Shown here: positions 30,840 through 38,914 of the stretch, piece after piece | Layout: every line of letters begins with the position of its first letter | How positions within the stretch are numbered: the stretch's first letter is position 1 | NCBI GenBank assembly: GCA_027858855.1 | Contig: JAQIBV010000030.1 | Coordinates: 1 to 64,000, forward strand | DNA from: Spirochaetota bacterium | GTDB taxonomy: Bacteria; Spirochaetota; UBA4802; JAFGJZ01 | Direction: 5' to 3' | DNA length: 64,000 nt | Position numbers and translations under genes: made by a program | Notes under the pieces: generated by a model | Told to the model about the DNA's origin: nothing | Databases searched by the model: none | The model's input: only the letters and a program-made list of their open reading frames with translations

Positions 30840-30900
30840 TTTATGGGAAGTTTTAATAACCATATTTCATAAAGAGATCCAAAGTAAATAATCCAAAAAA

Positions 30901-31491
30901 TGGAGGGATGCAAAGAAAAGTTTTTGCTTAAAAAATCTTTTCGAAGCACCCTTCATCTATTCTTCGGGAATCCCCAAATATTCAAACACTATTGATTCTA
31001 CAGCTGATACCGTAACACGTGTTGTTGAAGGAGGCAACGAAATAGGGAATCATTCAAAGGGGTTTGATTCGCTTACTGGTAAAACTGCTGCAGAGATAGA
31101 GGAGTCTGTAAATTATACGACAACTCAGATTGAAAAATATGCCGGTGCCGAACATACTCCTGAATTTTTTCGTGCCCCGAATCTTTCGGCCGATACACTT
31201 ATGTATAATATTATTGATCTGCCATTTGCGAGCGGAATTCTAGCCAACGACTGGACTAATAATGATGAATATGAGCGAGCTAAGGCGATTATTGACAACG
31301 TAAAAGATGGAGTAATAATTCTTTTGCATGACGTACAGCCAAAACCTCATCCGACTCCGGAAGCGCTTGATTATATCATCCCAAATCTGAAGTTAATGGG
31401 CTACGAATTTGTTACTTTGAGTGAACTTTTTGAACGTAAGAATGTGGATCCGACTTCAAAAACGGATGCCATGTGGGTGGTAGCAGAGTAA
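30901..31491 (+). pseudogene. NodB-type polysaccharide deacetylase (CE4), 5'-truncated remnant
   Basis: A continuous frame from about 30892 to 31491 reads the middle and end of a CE4 domain: DSTADTVTRVVEGGNEIGNHS, HTPEFFRAPNLSADTL, IILLHDV and LKLMGYEFVTLSELF. The first NodB motif (TFDDG) is missing, and a stop codon lies just upstream, so the N-terminus has been lost. In the second motif the usual HSxxH reads HSKGF, so one metal ligand is also gone. A frame change near 30950-30965 is possible. The position after three xylanases suggests a former acetylxylan esterase or chitin/peptidoglycan deacetylase. The ATG at 31201 would give only a C-terminal 96-residue piece. Confidence 0.8.
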
Positions 31492-32557: not shown

Positions 32558-33775
32558 TTATTTGATAATGAAATTATCCTCATCAAATTCCAGGTCTGCG
32601 ACATCCTTCGGTACCAGAGGCGTAATCGAATCGATATTATATTCAGGCGCCCATGCCGGTGCAGAACTTAGGGTTCCCTCTGATCCATTAAATGTTCCCA
32701 GAAAACCATCGGGTGAATAATATGCCGGATTAACAAGTTCTGTAATAAATATAAAAGCATCCAGATCAACATCCGATTCTTCACCTGCGAACCATTTCAG
32801 TAAGGCATCAATGTCGCCGTCAGTTAAGCTCTCGATGGTCTCACCTTCAAAGTCCAGTTTTGTATGTTCTTCCAGTGCAGATACAGTCAGACCTCCTTCG
32901 CTTAGTGAGTCTTTAAGCTCAGGGTAGTGCAAATCTTTGACAACAGCACTAACGCTGTATTCGTCCCACAATGTGTCGGTATCTGTGACGTCTGCGTGAG
33001 GAAGAGCAAGTTTTAAAACAGCATTTGCGTCAATTTTAGCGACTGCTGTAAACGAGTAGACCCGGGCTTTGGGATCGTTCACATAAAGTTTCGGGTCTAC
33101 GACCGGCGTATAATAGCTGCCCTTGAGCGATATCACGCCATTGCCATCTTCTGTTGCTTCAATCCATACCGTTGTTGGAGAGCCAACTTCTTCTTCATCT
33201 TCGTCTGAAAGATCGACAGCGTAGATATCGAGAGTCTTAATGGTTTCTGTTCCGTCAAAATCAACCTGCAACTTGAATGTATTCGGCTCGTCGGGAATAT
33301 AACGTGCATCAAGTATAATACTGCCGCGATATCCTGTATCGGTAGCACTAAGCAGTACTCTCATGTTCATCTTGGGTTCACCTTCATATAGTGCGTAAAC
33401 ATCAACAATGGTATCATATTCGCCGGTTGGATCCGGTTTCCAAGTAACACGAGCGGGTTCGTCCGCAGCTCCTCCACTGTTGTCCCAGTCTCCCGAGCTT
33501 TCACCAGAATCAAGAATATTTTCCTGAATGCTATAGGTAATCTCTTGCGCTAACTCAGAAAATCCCTCAATCATGCCAATAGTTCCGCGAATTCCTTCAT
33601 AAACTTCATCAGCAATACTATCTGATGTTGACCGGGACTCGACTTTACTGATCGAGTCTGGTAGATTGATAATTGATTCCTCTAGTGTTCGTTGTTTATT
33701 ATCCGTCTTTGTTTCGCTGTCTTCACAGCTGAATAACATGATGGGCAAAATAAGCAGAAATAAATATTTTTTCAT
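32558..33775 (-). CDS. Hypothetical lipoprotein, 405 residues, acidic
   Basis: The protein has a lipoprotein signal: MKKYLFLLILPIMLFSC with lipobox LFSC. The mature part is strongly acidic and rich in Asp/Glu/Thr, beginning EDSETKTDNKQ. Beta-rich segments (TGYRGSIILDARYIPDEPNTFKL in pieces, VSLKGSYYTPVVDPKLYV, FTAVAKIDANAVLKLALPHA) suggest a surface or periplasmic beta protein. I do not recognise a family. I chose the ATG at 33775, with AAGG about 8 nt upstream, rather than an in-frame start at 33808 that lacks a signal peptide. It is a single gene with the MITE-like repeat upstream. Confidence 0.7.
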   Translation of the reverse strand: MKKYLFLLILPIMLFSCEDSETKTDNKQRTLEESIINLPDSISKVESRSTSDSIADEVYEGIRGTIGMIEGFSELAQEITYSIQENILDSGESSGDWDNSGGAADEPARVTWKPDPTGEYDTIVDVYALYEGEPKMNMRVLLSATDTGYRGSIILDARYIPDEPNTFKLQVDFDGTETIKTLDIYAVDLSDEDEEEVGSPTTVWIEATEDGNGVISLKGSYYTPVVDPKLYVNDPKARVYSFTAVAKIDANAVLKLALPHADVTDTDTLWDEYSVSAVVKDLHYPELKDSLSEGGLTVSALEEHTKLDFEGETIESLTDGDIDALLKWFAGEESDVDLDAFIFITELVNPAYYSPDGFLGTFNGSEGTLSSAPAWAPEYNIDSITPLVPKDVADLEFDEDNFIIK

Positions 33776-33921
33776 TTTAGACCTTCCTTCCTGTTGATAT
33801 AGATACATAAAAAATTGAGTCGCGAATATAGATGAAAATTTACAGAGTTACAGGATAAAAAACAACATATTAATTAGGTTTGGTAAATAAAAATTTAGTT
33901 AAAAGAATAATTTTATTTAAT

Positions 33922-34041
33922 AAGGGAACTTCGAAAAATTACCATGTTCCAGAAGGGAACATCGTTTAAGTGCCTATTATAAAGGAATTTTTCGCAAGTT
34001 CCTTGTTGAAAAGTTAATTATTAGAGGTACCCATAATAAAC
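33922..34041 (+). repeat. MITE-like element, copy A
   Basis: The element has inverted ends, AAGGGAACTTCGAAAAATTAC on the left and GGAATTTTTCGCAAGTTCC (33984-34002) on the right, with ACATCGTTTAAGTGCCTATTATAAA between them and a tail TAATTATTAGAGGTACCC. Reverse-complement and related copies occur at 49263-49552 and 50482-50570. It lies between the lipoprotein gene and the ncRNA candidate. No protein is encoded. Confidence 0.75.
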
Positions 34042-34188
34042 TTTTTGAAATGCTTTCATTGTTCAGATAAGAACAATGAAAGGGCGGAATTCGGTACTGG
34101 TTTCAAAGATAATTATCAGCGTTTCTCTGGTATTAAAGATTTATAGAATGTGTATTGATGAAAAAAATAAAAAAAAGTTATGTCACTC

Positions 34189-34217
34189 TTGACGATTTTT
34201 AAATTTGTACTATATTA
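34189..34217 (+). promoter_or_regulatory. Promoter of the ncRNA candidate
   Basis: TTGACG (34189-34194) is followed after 16-18 bases by TATATTAT (34211-34218). The predicted start site is near 34223, just before the first hairpin of the candidate RNA. Confidence 0.6.
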
Positions 34218-34222
34218 TAAAT

Positions 34223-34422
34223 AGAGTCTGGAACAGACGAAAAGAGTTAAGAGGGGTGATCACCAAGCCTCACCCTGGGCAGGTAATTTGCCATACTCAC
34301 TAATCGGTGGAAGATCCAGAAAATGTACTGACGAGCGGGAGGTATGCTAAAGTTTTGAAAGCAGAATTAACGGAACCAACATTTTAAAGGGGTCATTGAT
34401 CGTACGATTGATGACCCCTTTT
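34223..34422 (+). ncRNA. Candidate structured ncRNA of about 200 nt, family not recognised
   Basis: A non-coding stretch is bounded by a promoter (34189-34217) and a strong terminator (34389-34422). Internal pairing is dense: GTCTG/CAGAC (34226-34238), GGGTGA/TCACCC (34254-34275), GGCA/TGCC (34278-34292), GATCACC with GGTG-GAAGATC (34258-34264 with about 34307-34316) and an AGC-GCT hairpin near 34335-34350. TCTGGA (34227-34232) can pair either locally or with TCCAGA at 34315-34320, so two folds are possible. No reading frame of any length starts in it. It is not a tRNA, SRP RNA, tmRNA or RNase P RNA by conserved motifs, and I could not match it to a riboswitch class. The 3' neighbour is convergent, so it is not a leader. 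Confidence 0.6.
34389..34422 (+). terminator. Intrinsic terminator of the ncRNA candidate
   Basis: GGGGTCATTGATCG and its complement CGATTGATGACCCC (with two G-U pairs) form a long stem followed by TTTT. On the opposite strand the A-rich flank (AAA before the stem gives TTTAAAATG) would also allow termination of the convergent chemoreceptor transcript. Confidence 0.8.
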
Positions 34423-34505
34423 CATATAGTCCTGACCTTCAATAAATTGAAGTACCATCTTGCAGATGCACTTCCACATCATTTCAAAAAAATAATTTCT
34501 GTTTA

Positions 34506-36542
34506 TTAAACCTTAAAGAATTTTACCTTGGCTTTCAGGGATTCAGACATTCCGGCCAGTTTTTTTGTATTGTCCGAAACATCCTGAGAGTGGGTTGCGT
34601 TTTTCTGAGACAGGTCGTTTATATCAAAGATAGAACCTGCAATCTCTGATATTGCCCGTTTGTTTTCATCGGCGGCATGCTTGATCCCTTCCGATATTTT
34701 TTGAACCTGTTCAGCACGCTGGGAGACTTCATCGTTTGTTTTTGAGTAGTGGTTCATGAAATTGCTTATTTTTCTGTTCATATCGTTGATAGAGCTGATA
34801 CCGTTTAGAAAATCAGTTATTAGGTGGAGTGTCTCATTGATATGCTTCTGTCCATCACTGATCTCTGTACTGTTCATACGAATAAGGCCATCGATATCCT
34901 TAAGGCTTTTTGCTGTCTGGTCGGCCAGTTTGGAAATTTCGTCAGCAACTACTGCGAAACCTTTACCGGCATCTCCCGCGCGAGCAGCCTCAATAGCTGC
35001 ATTCAGTGAAAGCAGGTTAATCTGTTCCGATATATCATCAATAATAGCGAGAATGTTAACCATGTCCTGGCTCGAGTTAATGAGTTTGTCCATAGTGTGA
35101 TCCATTGTTCGGAGAGTCTCCTCACCGGTAGCGGCTCTCGATTGCAATTTTTCTGTCAGTGAAAAGGTGCTGTTTGTCATATCCTGTATTTCATGAAGCA
35201 TTGTAGAGAGCTCTTTAATCTGTTTATCCAGAAAACTTATGCTATTGTTCTGGGTTTCAGATTCGGTGGCAACATTAACCATACTGGCTTCCATCTCTAC
35301 TACGGAAGCCGATATCTCTTCAGAGTTGGCGGACTGGTTCTGAATATTGGTTGAAAAATCATTAATAGCAGATGCTATCTCGTCGGCCGAATAGGCAACC
35401 TGATTCGTTGAGTGGTTAACGTCTATAATAACATCGCGTGTGATAGTAATAAAATCGTTATATTTTCTGGCAAGCTCCCCGATTACATCTTTACGCTTTG
35501 TAATTTTGGTAGACATGGTGTTGTGAAAGTCTCCCTCAGATGCTGCTGCAAGATATTCCCGCAATGTTGTAATCGGATCTATAATCGTCTTTGCGCTTTT
35601 CGCTCCGTACAAAATGAAAAGAAGTACCATCAAAAAGATAAAAAACAGTGTCAGTGTGAAAACAAAGGTAACCCCACCAACAACTTCAGAATCTTTTACA
35701 ATTAAAACGTATTTCCAGCCGAACTCCCTGGATGTCATGATGCTAATCAGGTATTCTTGCTCATCCTCATCCAGACCTGTAATGCTATCATTTGAAATGT
35801 CTGCGACTTTTTCCAGTCCACTGATTCCTGTCTCAGATATGTTTTTGAAGTTGGTTTCCGGCATTCGGTGATTGACTATAGTAGTGCCATCCGGTTTGGA
35901 GATAACAAGATATCCAGATTTTTCGAAAGTTAAAGATTCTAAAAAGCCGGTTATGCTATTAAAATCAATGTCTGCGAACAATACAGTTTCATCGTCGACT
36001 TTTAGAGCGATTGTCATTAGTGCTATATTCATTTCAGCGTTTAAATAGGGTTCCGAAAAAATAGCTTCAGAAGATGCGATCGCATCTTTAAAAAGCGTAC
36101 TGTCGATATTTGCATGGAGCGCACGTTTTTTATCGGAAGGGTACTGAAAGACTGTCCCATTTTTGCGCACAGAGTATATTCGTTTTATATTAGATTTCGT
36201 ATCGGTAAGAAACGATATTGTGTTTTTAAGCCTAACTGTATCGGTCGAGAAGGTTTCTCGTATTGGTGAATCCTTCTCGGCATAACTTAAGTAAAGCGAG
36301 TCGGAAGATAGAGCTCCTGACCTGCTTACAAGTAATAAGTCCTTTTTGTAGCGATTAACTGTTTCAAGGATAGTCCTGTTAGCGAGACTTACAGAAGTTG
36401 TCGAATTATTGATAAAACTTTTGCGAGTGCTGGTCCGCATCATTCCTGATGTAACAAAAAAGGTAAAAATAACGGGAATAGCAGCCAGAATTATATAGTT
36501 TTTTATTATCTGGAATTTCAAACCGTGCATGTTAAATCTCAT
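34506..36542 (-). CDS. Methyl-accepting chemotaxis protein with Cache sensor
   Basis: The 678-residue chemoreceptor has a first membrane helix at about 14-33, a periplasmic sensor of about 260 residues of dCache_1 type (KSGYLVISKPDGTTIVNH and WKYVLIVKDSEV are typical Cache pieces), a second helix at about 295-318 (FTLTLFFIFLMVLLFIL), HAMP and the signalling domain. The tip reads [21 protein letters not shown], in part, then [14 protein letters not shown]. dCache chemoreceptors usually bind amino acids, organic acids or related small molecules, and the ligand here is unknown. The C-terminus LKAKVKFFKV resembles that of the chemoreceptor at 9.8 kb ([11 protein letters not shown]). It is a single gene, tail-to-tail with the ncRNA candidate. 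Confidence 0.92.
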   Translation of the reverse strand: MRFNMHGLKFQIIKNYIILAAIPVIFTFFVTSGMMRTSTRKSFINNSTTSVSLANRTILETVNRYKKDLLLVSRSGALSSDSLYLSYAEKDSPIRETFSTDTVRLKNTISFLTDTKSNIKRIYSVRKNGTVFQYPSDKKRALHANIDSTLFKDAIASSEAIFSEPYLNAEMNIALMTIALKVDDETVLFADIDFNSITGFLESLTFEKSGYLVISKPDGTTIVNHRMPETNFKNISETGISGLEKVADISNDSITGLDEDEQEYLISIMTSREFGWKYVLIVKDSEVVGGVTFVFTLTLFFIFLMVLLFILYGAKSAKTIIDPITTLREYLAAASEGDFHNTMSTKITKRKDVIGELARKYNDFITITRDVIIDVNHSTNQVAYSADEIASAINDFSTNIQNQSANSEEISASVVEMEASMVNVATESETQNNSISFLDKQIKELSTMLHEIQDMTNSTFSLTEKLQSRAATGEETLRTMDHTMDKLINSSQDMVNILAIIDDISEQINLLSLNAAIEAARAGDAGKGFAVVADEISKLADQTAKSLKDIDGLIRMNSTEISDGQKHINETLHLITDFLNGISSINDMNRKISNFMNHYSKTNDEVSQRAEQVQKISEGIKHAADENKRAISEIAGSIFDINDLSQKNATHSQDVSDNTKKLAGMSESLKAKVKFFKV

Positions 36543-36877: not shown

Positions 36878-38704
36878 CTACTTTTGTATCGTGATTTTCG
36901 TTTTCGTACCATTTTTTGCAACGATTGTTAATTCTGCATTAAGTTGTGATGTCAGTCCCTGAATAAGCTGCATACCTAAGCGTGATCTTTTTTCCATCTC
37001 TTCTTTTATCGGTATTCCTATACCGTTATCTGAGACAATGATTTCAATTCTGTTGTCAAAATCTTTCAATGATACACGGATAATTCCCTTCTGGTTTTCT
37101 TTAAAAGCATGCTTGATAGAGTTGGTCAGAAGTTCATTTATTATCAGGCCAAGCGGTATTGCCGTATCCATCGTAAAGCTAATATTATCGATATTTTTAA
37201 CCATTTCAATTATATTCTGATTTACTGAGTAGCTGTAGAAAAGCTCATCCACAATAGTCGAAATATAGTCCTGCGCACGAACTTCTGTCAGATCTTTTGT
37301 CTGATATATTTTTTCATGAATAATTCCCATCGATCTGATTCTGCTGGAAGTCTCTTTCAGGATGGTCAGTGTGGTTTGATTATTGGTATAGTTGGCCTGC
37401 AGTCCGATCAGGCTCGAGATTATCTGAAGATTATTTTTCACACGATGGTGAATCTCTTTTATCAGAATTTCCTTCTCTTTCAACGATTTAATCAGTTTCT
37501 CTTCCGATTCACGCTCTTTCAGAACAATTGTATTGCTTAAACGTGCAAGCTCCTTGAATTCTGAAAAGATAAGTTCAGAAACATCCATCTCTTCTCTGGT
37601 TTCGGATGCTCGGGTATATTGTCCACTAAAGGCAGAAAACTGGTGTGCGATTCTTTTAGAAATTGTGAAAGCTATATAGACAATGAAAAGAGAAAATATA
37701 AAAATTATTGTTATTAAAATGGTTAATTGCTGCATATAATTAGCATGCAGTCTGCTTTTTTGGGGTTTGATTCCGGAATCAATGTCTTCCAGGTATTTAC
37801 CATAAGCAAGAAACCAGGATTCATCGAAAACAGGATGAATATAGCTTATTTTGTGTTTCGAGTCGAATCCCTCTAACTCAGGGAAGTTATACTCTAAAAA
37901 TCCTCCACCACCACGTGCCGTTTCGATCATTTTCTTTACAACGGGCTCTCCGTCCTTGTCGAGGGCCTCTAGCAGGTTTTGCCCAGGCGCTAGCCCTGCA
38001 AGTGAGAGCCCGGAGTAGGTGGCTGCAAAGAAATAGTTGTCACGCGTACTATTTCGCAGGGAGAAGTAGTCGATGATTTTGGCTCTGATTTTCTGCTCTA
38101 TTTCTGTTTCCGAGACAGATACGCCAATACATATACGCAGCGGTTGAAAGTATCTGGTATAGATGATAGATGGAGAGGTGGATGATCCTGTTTTGACTCG
38201 TCCGGTTGTGTAATAACCCTCTCCCGATTTTTTACAGAAGGCTGCAATATCCAGAGGGTCTGCTTCAGCGACGGTAAAGGGCGTAATTTCTTTGCCCTGA
38301 TCTGACAAAATGAAAACCGGATAACTTTTTGAATGGGTTATGGATGATTTAATTCTATCCACAAGTATCTGTCTCATAGATATAACAGAATTTGATCCCC
38401 ATCGATTCAGATAAATCTCTTCTGCAGCAGCAAATACACTGTTAACAGTGTCGCGGAGTTCAGTACGATAATTATCCTCAGATTCAATACTTAACTGATT
38501 AATATAGGCTACTTCATTCAGTACAGTCTTTTTAAGTACTATTTTTTCGCGTGAATAGTTGTTTTTCTCGATTAAATCTCTGTTCTGCTTGTAGCCGTGT
38601 ATAATCAAAAACAGAGAAATAGCGCCTGGTATCAGAAGAAGTACAAAGCAGATGGACGCCAGAGTGGTTAAACTGTGTCTGCTGAGACTATTTTTTGTGC
38701 TCAT
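36878..38704 (-). CDS. Sensor histidine kinase, HisKA_2 type with Cache-like sensor
   Basis: This 608-residue membrane kinase has a first helix at about 14-36 (ASICFVLLLIPGAISLFLII), a long periplasmic sensor with repeated Cache-like pieces (YYTTGRVKTGSSTSPSIIYTRYF in part, and FFAATYSGLSLAGLAPGQ, WFLAYGKYLEDI), a second helix near 330-350, and a cytoplasmic kinase. The phosphoacceptor site is in EIHHRVKNNLQIISSLIGLQ, characteristic of HisKA_2/HWE-like kinases. The ATPase has NELLTNSIKHAF (N box), SDNGIGI and RLGMQLIQGL. I chose the ATG at 38704, which has AAGGA 6 nt upstream, over the frame starting at 38782. No response regulator is adjacent, so its partner must be elsewhere. Confidence 0.88.
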   Translation of the reverse strand: MSTKNSLSRHSLTTLASICFVLLLIPGAISLFLIIHGYKQNRDLIEKNNYSREKIVLKKTVLNEVAYINQLSIESEDNYRTELRDTVNSVFAAAEEIYLNRWGSNSVISMRQILVDRIKSSITHSKSYPVFILSDQGKEITPFTVAEADPLDIAAFCKKSGEGYYTTGRVKTGSSTSPSIIYTRYFQPLRICIGVSVSETEIEQKIRAKIIDYFSLRNSTRDNYFFAATYSGLSLAGLAPGQNLLEALDKDGEPVVKKMIETARGGGGFLEYNFPELEGFDSKHKISYIHPVFDESWFLAYGKYLEDIDSGIKPQKSRLHANYMQQLTILITIIFIFSLFIVYIAFTISKRIAHQFSAFSGQYTRASETREEMDVSELIFSEFKELARLSNTIVLKERESEEKLIKSLKEKEILIKEIHHRVKNNLQIISSLIGLQANYTNNQTTLTILKETSSRIRSMGIIHEKIYQTKDLTEVRAQDYISTIVDELFYSYSVNQNIIEMVKNIDNISFTMDTAIPLGLIINELLTNSIKHAFKENQKGIIRVSLKDFDNRIEIIVSDNGIGIPIKEEMEKRSRLGMQLIQGLTSQLNAELTIVAKNGTKTKITIQK

Positions 38705-38914
38705 GGTTTCCTTAACGGACAATCTATTTAATAATTTAAAGGTGTTCAGCTTTAATATAGTGCTGTTTTCCTCTTTTCTCAAGAGAGAGTCATAGAAAAA
38801 TCAGATTATTAGCAATAAACGGAAAATGGAAATGGTGAAGGTGGTGAAAGGCAGTGAATAATGAAGAATGAAAAGTGAAAAAGAGGAAAAGTGGCTGATA
38901 TTGGAGTGAATATT

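Follow-up and report, generated by a model that had tools for sequence, protein, structure and literature searches.

The segment 34,225–34,422 on the + strand of the window, that is, of the whole stretch of 64,000 nucleotides analysed here, on balance probably encodes a small regulatory RNA of ~200 nt that is transcribed independently, is specific to one genus and acts in trans. The preliminary description had proposed an unrecognised structured non-coding RNA with its own promoter and terminator, and the analysis supports this; none of the searches found the element outside a single genus. Taken from the source genome by itself the finding would be weak, and it is conservation that decides; every claim on the RNA rests on two sequences, that of the source genome and that of a sister species of the same genus (G001).

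The RNA body (34,225–34,386, +; start at ~34,225 predicted from the -10 box) lies in a gene-free segment of ~160 bases inside 34,189–34,422, between a promoter-like pair and a strong hairpin, and no open frame of at least 60 aa overlaps it. Its G+C content is 44%, vs 28% in the adjoining intergenic region. The downstream neighbour is a convergent gene for a methyl-accepting chemotaxis protein with Cache and MCPsignal domains (34,506–36,542, -; Pfam PF00015, 2e-37), and the same receptor gene adjoins the element in G001 (locus L005, 8248–10287). Immediately 5' of the receptor gene and in the same orientation lies a gene for a Cache-domain HisKA_2-type histidine kinase (36,878–38,782 in the window, 6153–7988 in L005), and kinase and receptor form a conserved sensor pair adjoining the RNA in both species. 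On the other side, the divergent neighbour (32,558–33,808, -) encodes a lipoprotein-like protein of unknown family without a Pfam hit, whose counterpart in G001 occupies the same position and is 51% identical in its N-terminal part. Upstream of the RNA promoter, hairpin-forming inverted repeats were observed at 33,916–34,010 and 34,053–34,082, with 25-nt arms 76% complementary around a smaller hairpin and with perfect 12-nt arms (CTTTCATTGTTC/GAACAATGAAAG); in G001 these repeats' stretch is not kept. Farther away, an open frame at 30,892–31,491 (+), adjoining a GH10 xylanase gene, resembles by eye the C-terminal portion of a polysaccharide deacetylase, and the expected N-terminal portion is absent. 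A 96-aa ORF inside it gave no Pfam hit, and the frame is possibly a truncated gene.

G001 is the sole other genome found with the element (BLASTN 82% identity, E 6e-50); the same element sequence is present on contig JAFGRW010000058.1 of a Spirochaetes MAG. Conservation in related genomes, the absence of which would have spoken against the preliminary description, extends in G001 from the promoter through the terminator, and the element also keeps its place and orientation with respect to the receptor and lipoprotein genes. Upstream of the promoter region identity is 35%; within the unit, the 5' domain reaches 76%, the 3' region 92% and the terminator 89%. Hardly anything can be aligned between the terminator and the receptor stop codon. 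Between the 5' domain and the 3' region lies a variable linker (34,323–34,336, +), of equal length in both species, with only 1 of 14 bases identical over 34,324–34,337 (7%). By comparison with the 92% of the 3' segment, the receptor coding sequence is only 59–76% identical between the two species. Since conservation starts at the promoter and ends at the terminator, with flanks that cannot be aligned, the conserved block looks like the outline of an independent transcription unit.

The putative promoter region (34,166–34,224, +) comprises an A-tract and a TTATGTC box, a TTGACG -35 element (34,189–34,194) and the -10 box TATATTAT (34,211–34,218), which can be read as TATATT or TATTAT and gives, together with TTGACG, 10 of 12 consensus matches. 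The pattern alone is not above chance in the scan, with 6 found vs 4.7 expected. The TTGACG promoter of the preliminary description is nevertheless present and conserved, with 89% identity to G001 over 34,189–34,224 and 83% over the entire region. The A-tract and TTATGTC box (34,166–34,188), just 5' of the -35 element, are common to both species and could be a UP element or a regulator site. At the other end, the strong terminator claimed earlier corresponds to a nearly symmetric hairpin (34,386–34,425), which has 18-nt arms (34,386–34,403/34,404–34,421) that are 89% complementary and form a 16-bp stem in folding. The U-run on the + strand is short (UUUU here, UUUC in G001), and for this reason the hairpin was missed on that strand by the scan for consensus terminators. 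Because of its near symmetry the hairpin may also end the receptor gene, and it probably serves both transcription units, the RNA (+) and the convergent gene (-).

The 5' structured domain (34,228–34,319, +) consists of a closing stem and a three-way junction in both species. In the alignment fold, the closing stem (34,228–34,232/34,315–34,319) is followed by an extension (34,233–34,237/34,304–34,308), an inner helix (34,244–34,247/34,295–34,298) and the two hairpins of the junction (34,254–34,259/34,270–34,275 and 34,278–34,282/34,288–34,292). The folding energy of the aligned domain is -27.6 kcal/mol vs -11.2 ± 2.9 for column shuffles that kept conserved and variable columns apart (z -5.3 to -5.6), and none of 1000 shuffles was as good; the calculation was repeated with 500. 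The single sequence folds only moderately more stably than its shuffles (z -2.7 to -2.8). Every pair of the domain forms in both species and none is broken. Compensating base changes, the test proposed at the outset, were found in the form of three double changes (A-U to G-C twice, U-A to C-G once), along with three one-sided pair changes across the whole structure; with two sequences the compensatory changes are not significant by themselves, at least three occurring in 105 of 1000 refolded 5'-domain shuffles and in 54 of 500 in a separate run. On the minus strand the folding is weaker (z -2.5 vs -5.3 on the + strand), and a G-C to G-U change preserves its pair only on the + strand. As judged from the comparison of the two species, a 5' fold on the + strand is conserved.

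The preliminary description also noted two alternative pairings of TCTGGA (34,227–34,232). Both are indeed possible in the window, either with TCCAGA at 34,315–34,320 (P ~0.45) or with the local CAGAC (P ~0.54). In G001, however, only the long-range TCTGGA/TCCAGA pairing forms (P ~0.84); the local hairpin segment GTCTGGAACAGAC reads GTTGCTGGAACGGG there, and the TCTGG/CAGAC hairpin is impossible. The proposed regulatory switch between competing folds is consequently unsupported and was rejected: by this comparison, evolution has kept one fold, not two.

The 3' region (34,337–34,386, +; GGGAGGTATGCTAAAGTTTTGAAAGCAGAATT...) is the most conserved part of the unit and includes 22 consecutive bases identical to G001. 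Its alignment folding is no better than that of shuffles (z -0.3), and a possible hairpin (34,351–34,357/34,362–34,368) is without structural support. Because its sequence is conserved without structural conservation, the 3' segment is probably the working part of the RNA, and because no gene lies downstream of it on the + strand, the RNA would act in trans. When duplexes were predicted with the start regions of the three genes nearby, no target was consistent between the two species. A Csr-type sponge, considered on account of GGA triplets, was rejected, as only ~4 are present, none of them in hairpin loops, and one is lost in G001. Likewise, a hammerhead read from CTGACGAG was discarded because G001 does not conserve it.

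Searches of Rfam with both species, at gathering as well as relaxed thresholds, returned no family match, only chance matches to unrelated families. This agrees with the earlier reading that the segment matches no SRP RNA, tmRNA, RNase P RNA or familiar riboswitch class. A covariance model built from the two sequences (R1) scores them at 190–193 bits. Applied to 46 genomes of the class and to 393 sampled from the phylum, it revealed no other member, only low-scoring hits. Those in G012, G234 and G333 fall within protein genes, that in G383 largely so, and all were rejected. Neither the sister genus nor the remainder of the order yielded a homologue, and phage and plasmid collections gave no match; a BLASTN match of 27 bases in G022 (L003) falls in a coding-looking stretch and was set aside. 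A DNA-pattern scan of 84,980 genomes yielded four stretches, and the model gives a score to just one of them, the contig of G001 itself. Nine IMG/VR contigs carry the 17-mer GGTGGAAGATCCAGAAA; the best (L032) has it inside a protein gene, where it encodes the same VEDPE, and L036 and L033 are weaker partial matches, and these too were rejected. Pipelines that search long GC-rich intergenic regions report comparable orphan motifs, one of which was judged an unlikely riboswitch from its orientation to neighbouring genes (PMC8632094). At 44% G+C beside 28%, the present RNA would suit such a search, while its narrow distribution would make detection hard.

Several other explanations of the segment were weighed against the trans-acting RNA. 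A divergent housekeeping RNA missed by Rfam, such as 6S or SRP RNA, is the least probable of them and very improbable indeed. Its size is near that of 6S RNA, but there is no covariance-model match to 6S RNA (RF00013) at the site, and a long end-to-end stem with a central open bubble does not form, as the 5' domain closes on itself at 34,228/34,319; the genuine 6S RNA is encoded on another contig (G000:C59), in keeping with the initial view that the resemblance ends at size. The source genome's own tmRNA (G000:C50) and RNase P RNA (G000:C1) are likewise on other contigs, the site matches neither model (RF00023, RF00010), and ARAGORN detected no tmRNA in the window. The SRP models (RF00169, RF01854) find no match at the site and none in the whole genome, which leaves some room for a divergent SRP RNA, but no helix-8 motif was seen in the candidate. 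The small-SRP model gave 1 weak hit in 29 related genomes, while the same search succeeds in 12 of 14 controls, and the SRP RNA of the order may have diverged, or the first filter of the search may have lost it. Since relatives whose SRP RNA is equally unrecognised lack the candidate, the latter is not taken to be the SRP RNA of this lineage. It is also doubtful, to nearly the same degree, that the segment is the 3' untranslated region of the convergent receptor gene, or a 3'-derived sRNA of it, with the minus strand as the functional one. The near symmetry of the terminator, ~85 bases past the receptor stop codon, would allow this; however, the folding and the G-C to G-U change both favour the + strand, and it is the promoter in the + direction that is conserved and not the stretch from receptor stop to terminator.

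The 5' domain resembles a compact junction aptamer, and an orphan riboswitch-like element, either the relic of a leader whose gene was lost or one that controls only its own short transcript, was considered, and is unlikely. A 6-bp alternative helix, CAUACU/GGUAUG, between the domain and the 3' segment is possible in both species, but it is at chance level, as several alternative 6-bp helices are common to both. Moreover, no riboswitch family matches, and the downstream gene (34,506–36,542, -) is convergent here as well as in G001, which rules out a leader or riboswitch acting on that gene, as had been recognised from the start. Slightly less improbable, though still with a small share of our confidence, is a small-protein messenger or dual-function sRNA, since one frame covers the unit, encoding VITKPHPGQVICHTH-stop and then VEDPENVLTSGRYAKVLKAELTEPTF-stop and ending just before the terminator. 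The stops are at the same positions in both species (the internal one TAA/TAG), third codon positions carry most changes (17/36), and several differences are synonymous (4 vs 5 non-synonymous in the first frame, 3 and 1 in the last part of the second). Permutation tests on the conserved coding parts nevertheless gave weak values of 0.06 and 0.15, and the value of 0.0008 obtained with the second frame as a whole is exaggerated by the linker, in which every codon differs between the species. In-frame GTG starts have no properly spaced Shine-Dalgarno sequence, and GGGAGG is directly adjacent to an ATG whose frame has just four codons; in tblastn, the order contained matches to the second peptide in the two species only. 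About as small a chance is given to a new structured-RNA family in one spirochaete genus, in which the three-way junction would present the nearly invariant 3' segment, with its perfect Shine-Dalgarno-like GGGAGGU, as a protein- or ribosome-directed device and not as an ordinary pairing sRNA. As the element is kept in one sister species and found nowhere else, a local regulatory RNA is probably the better description than a new kind of machine.

For the local regulatory RNA, we propose that RNA polymerase would start at ~34,225 from the sigma-70-type promoter and stop at the hairpin 34,386–34,421. The 5' three-way junction would probably protect the RNA and serve as a protein-binding platform, and the 3' segment (34,337–34,386), carried on the variable linker, would act in trans by pairing with target mRNAs or in a protein-bound form. 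The candidate has much in common with intergenic trans-acting sRNAs, namely a sigma-70-type promoter, a length of ~200 nt, a structured 5' part, a conserved 3' segment, a terminator hairpin and a narrow range; unlike them, it has a short U-run, which also sets it apart from typical Hfq-bound sRNAs, and it has no sequence relation to any Rfam sRNA. With 6S RNA (RF00013) it shares size and independence as a unit but not the end-to-end rod with a central bubble, and with three-way-junction riboswitch aptamers a compact junction domain at the 5' end and a terminator hairpin after it, but neither a downstream gene nor a family match. SgrS/SgrT-type dual-function sRNAs are similar in combining a possible short frame with a structured RNA, but the candidate has no convincing ribosome-binding site or coding signal. 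Judged by these features, it looks like an uncatalogued, lineage-specific intergenic sRNA. Its narrow range limits the wider meaning of the candidate; it provides a tested example of an sRNA gene read from raw sequence, and adds, from a spirochaete lineage that has been little studied, an sRNA candidate with comparative support.
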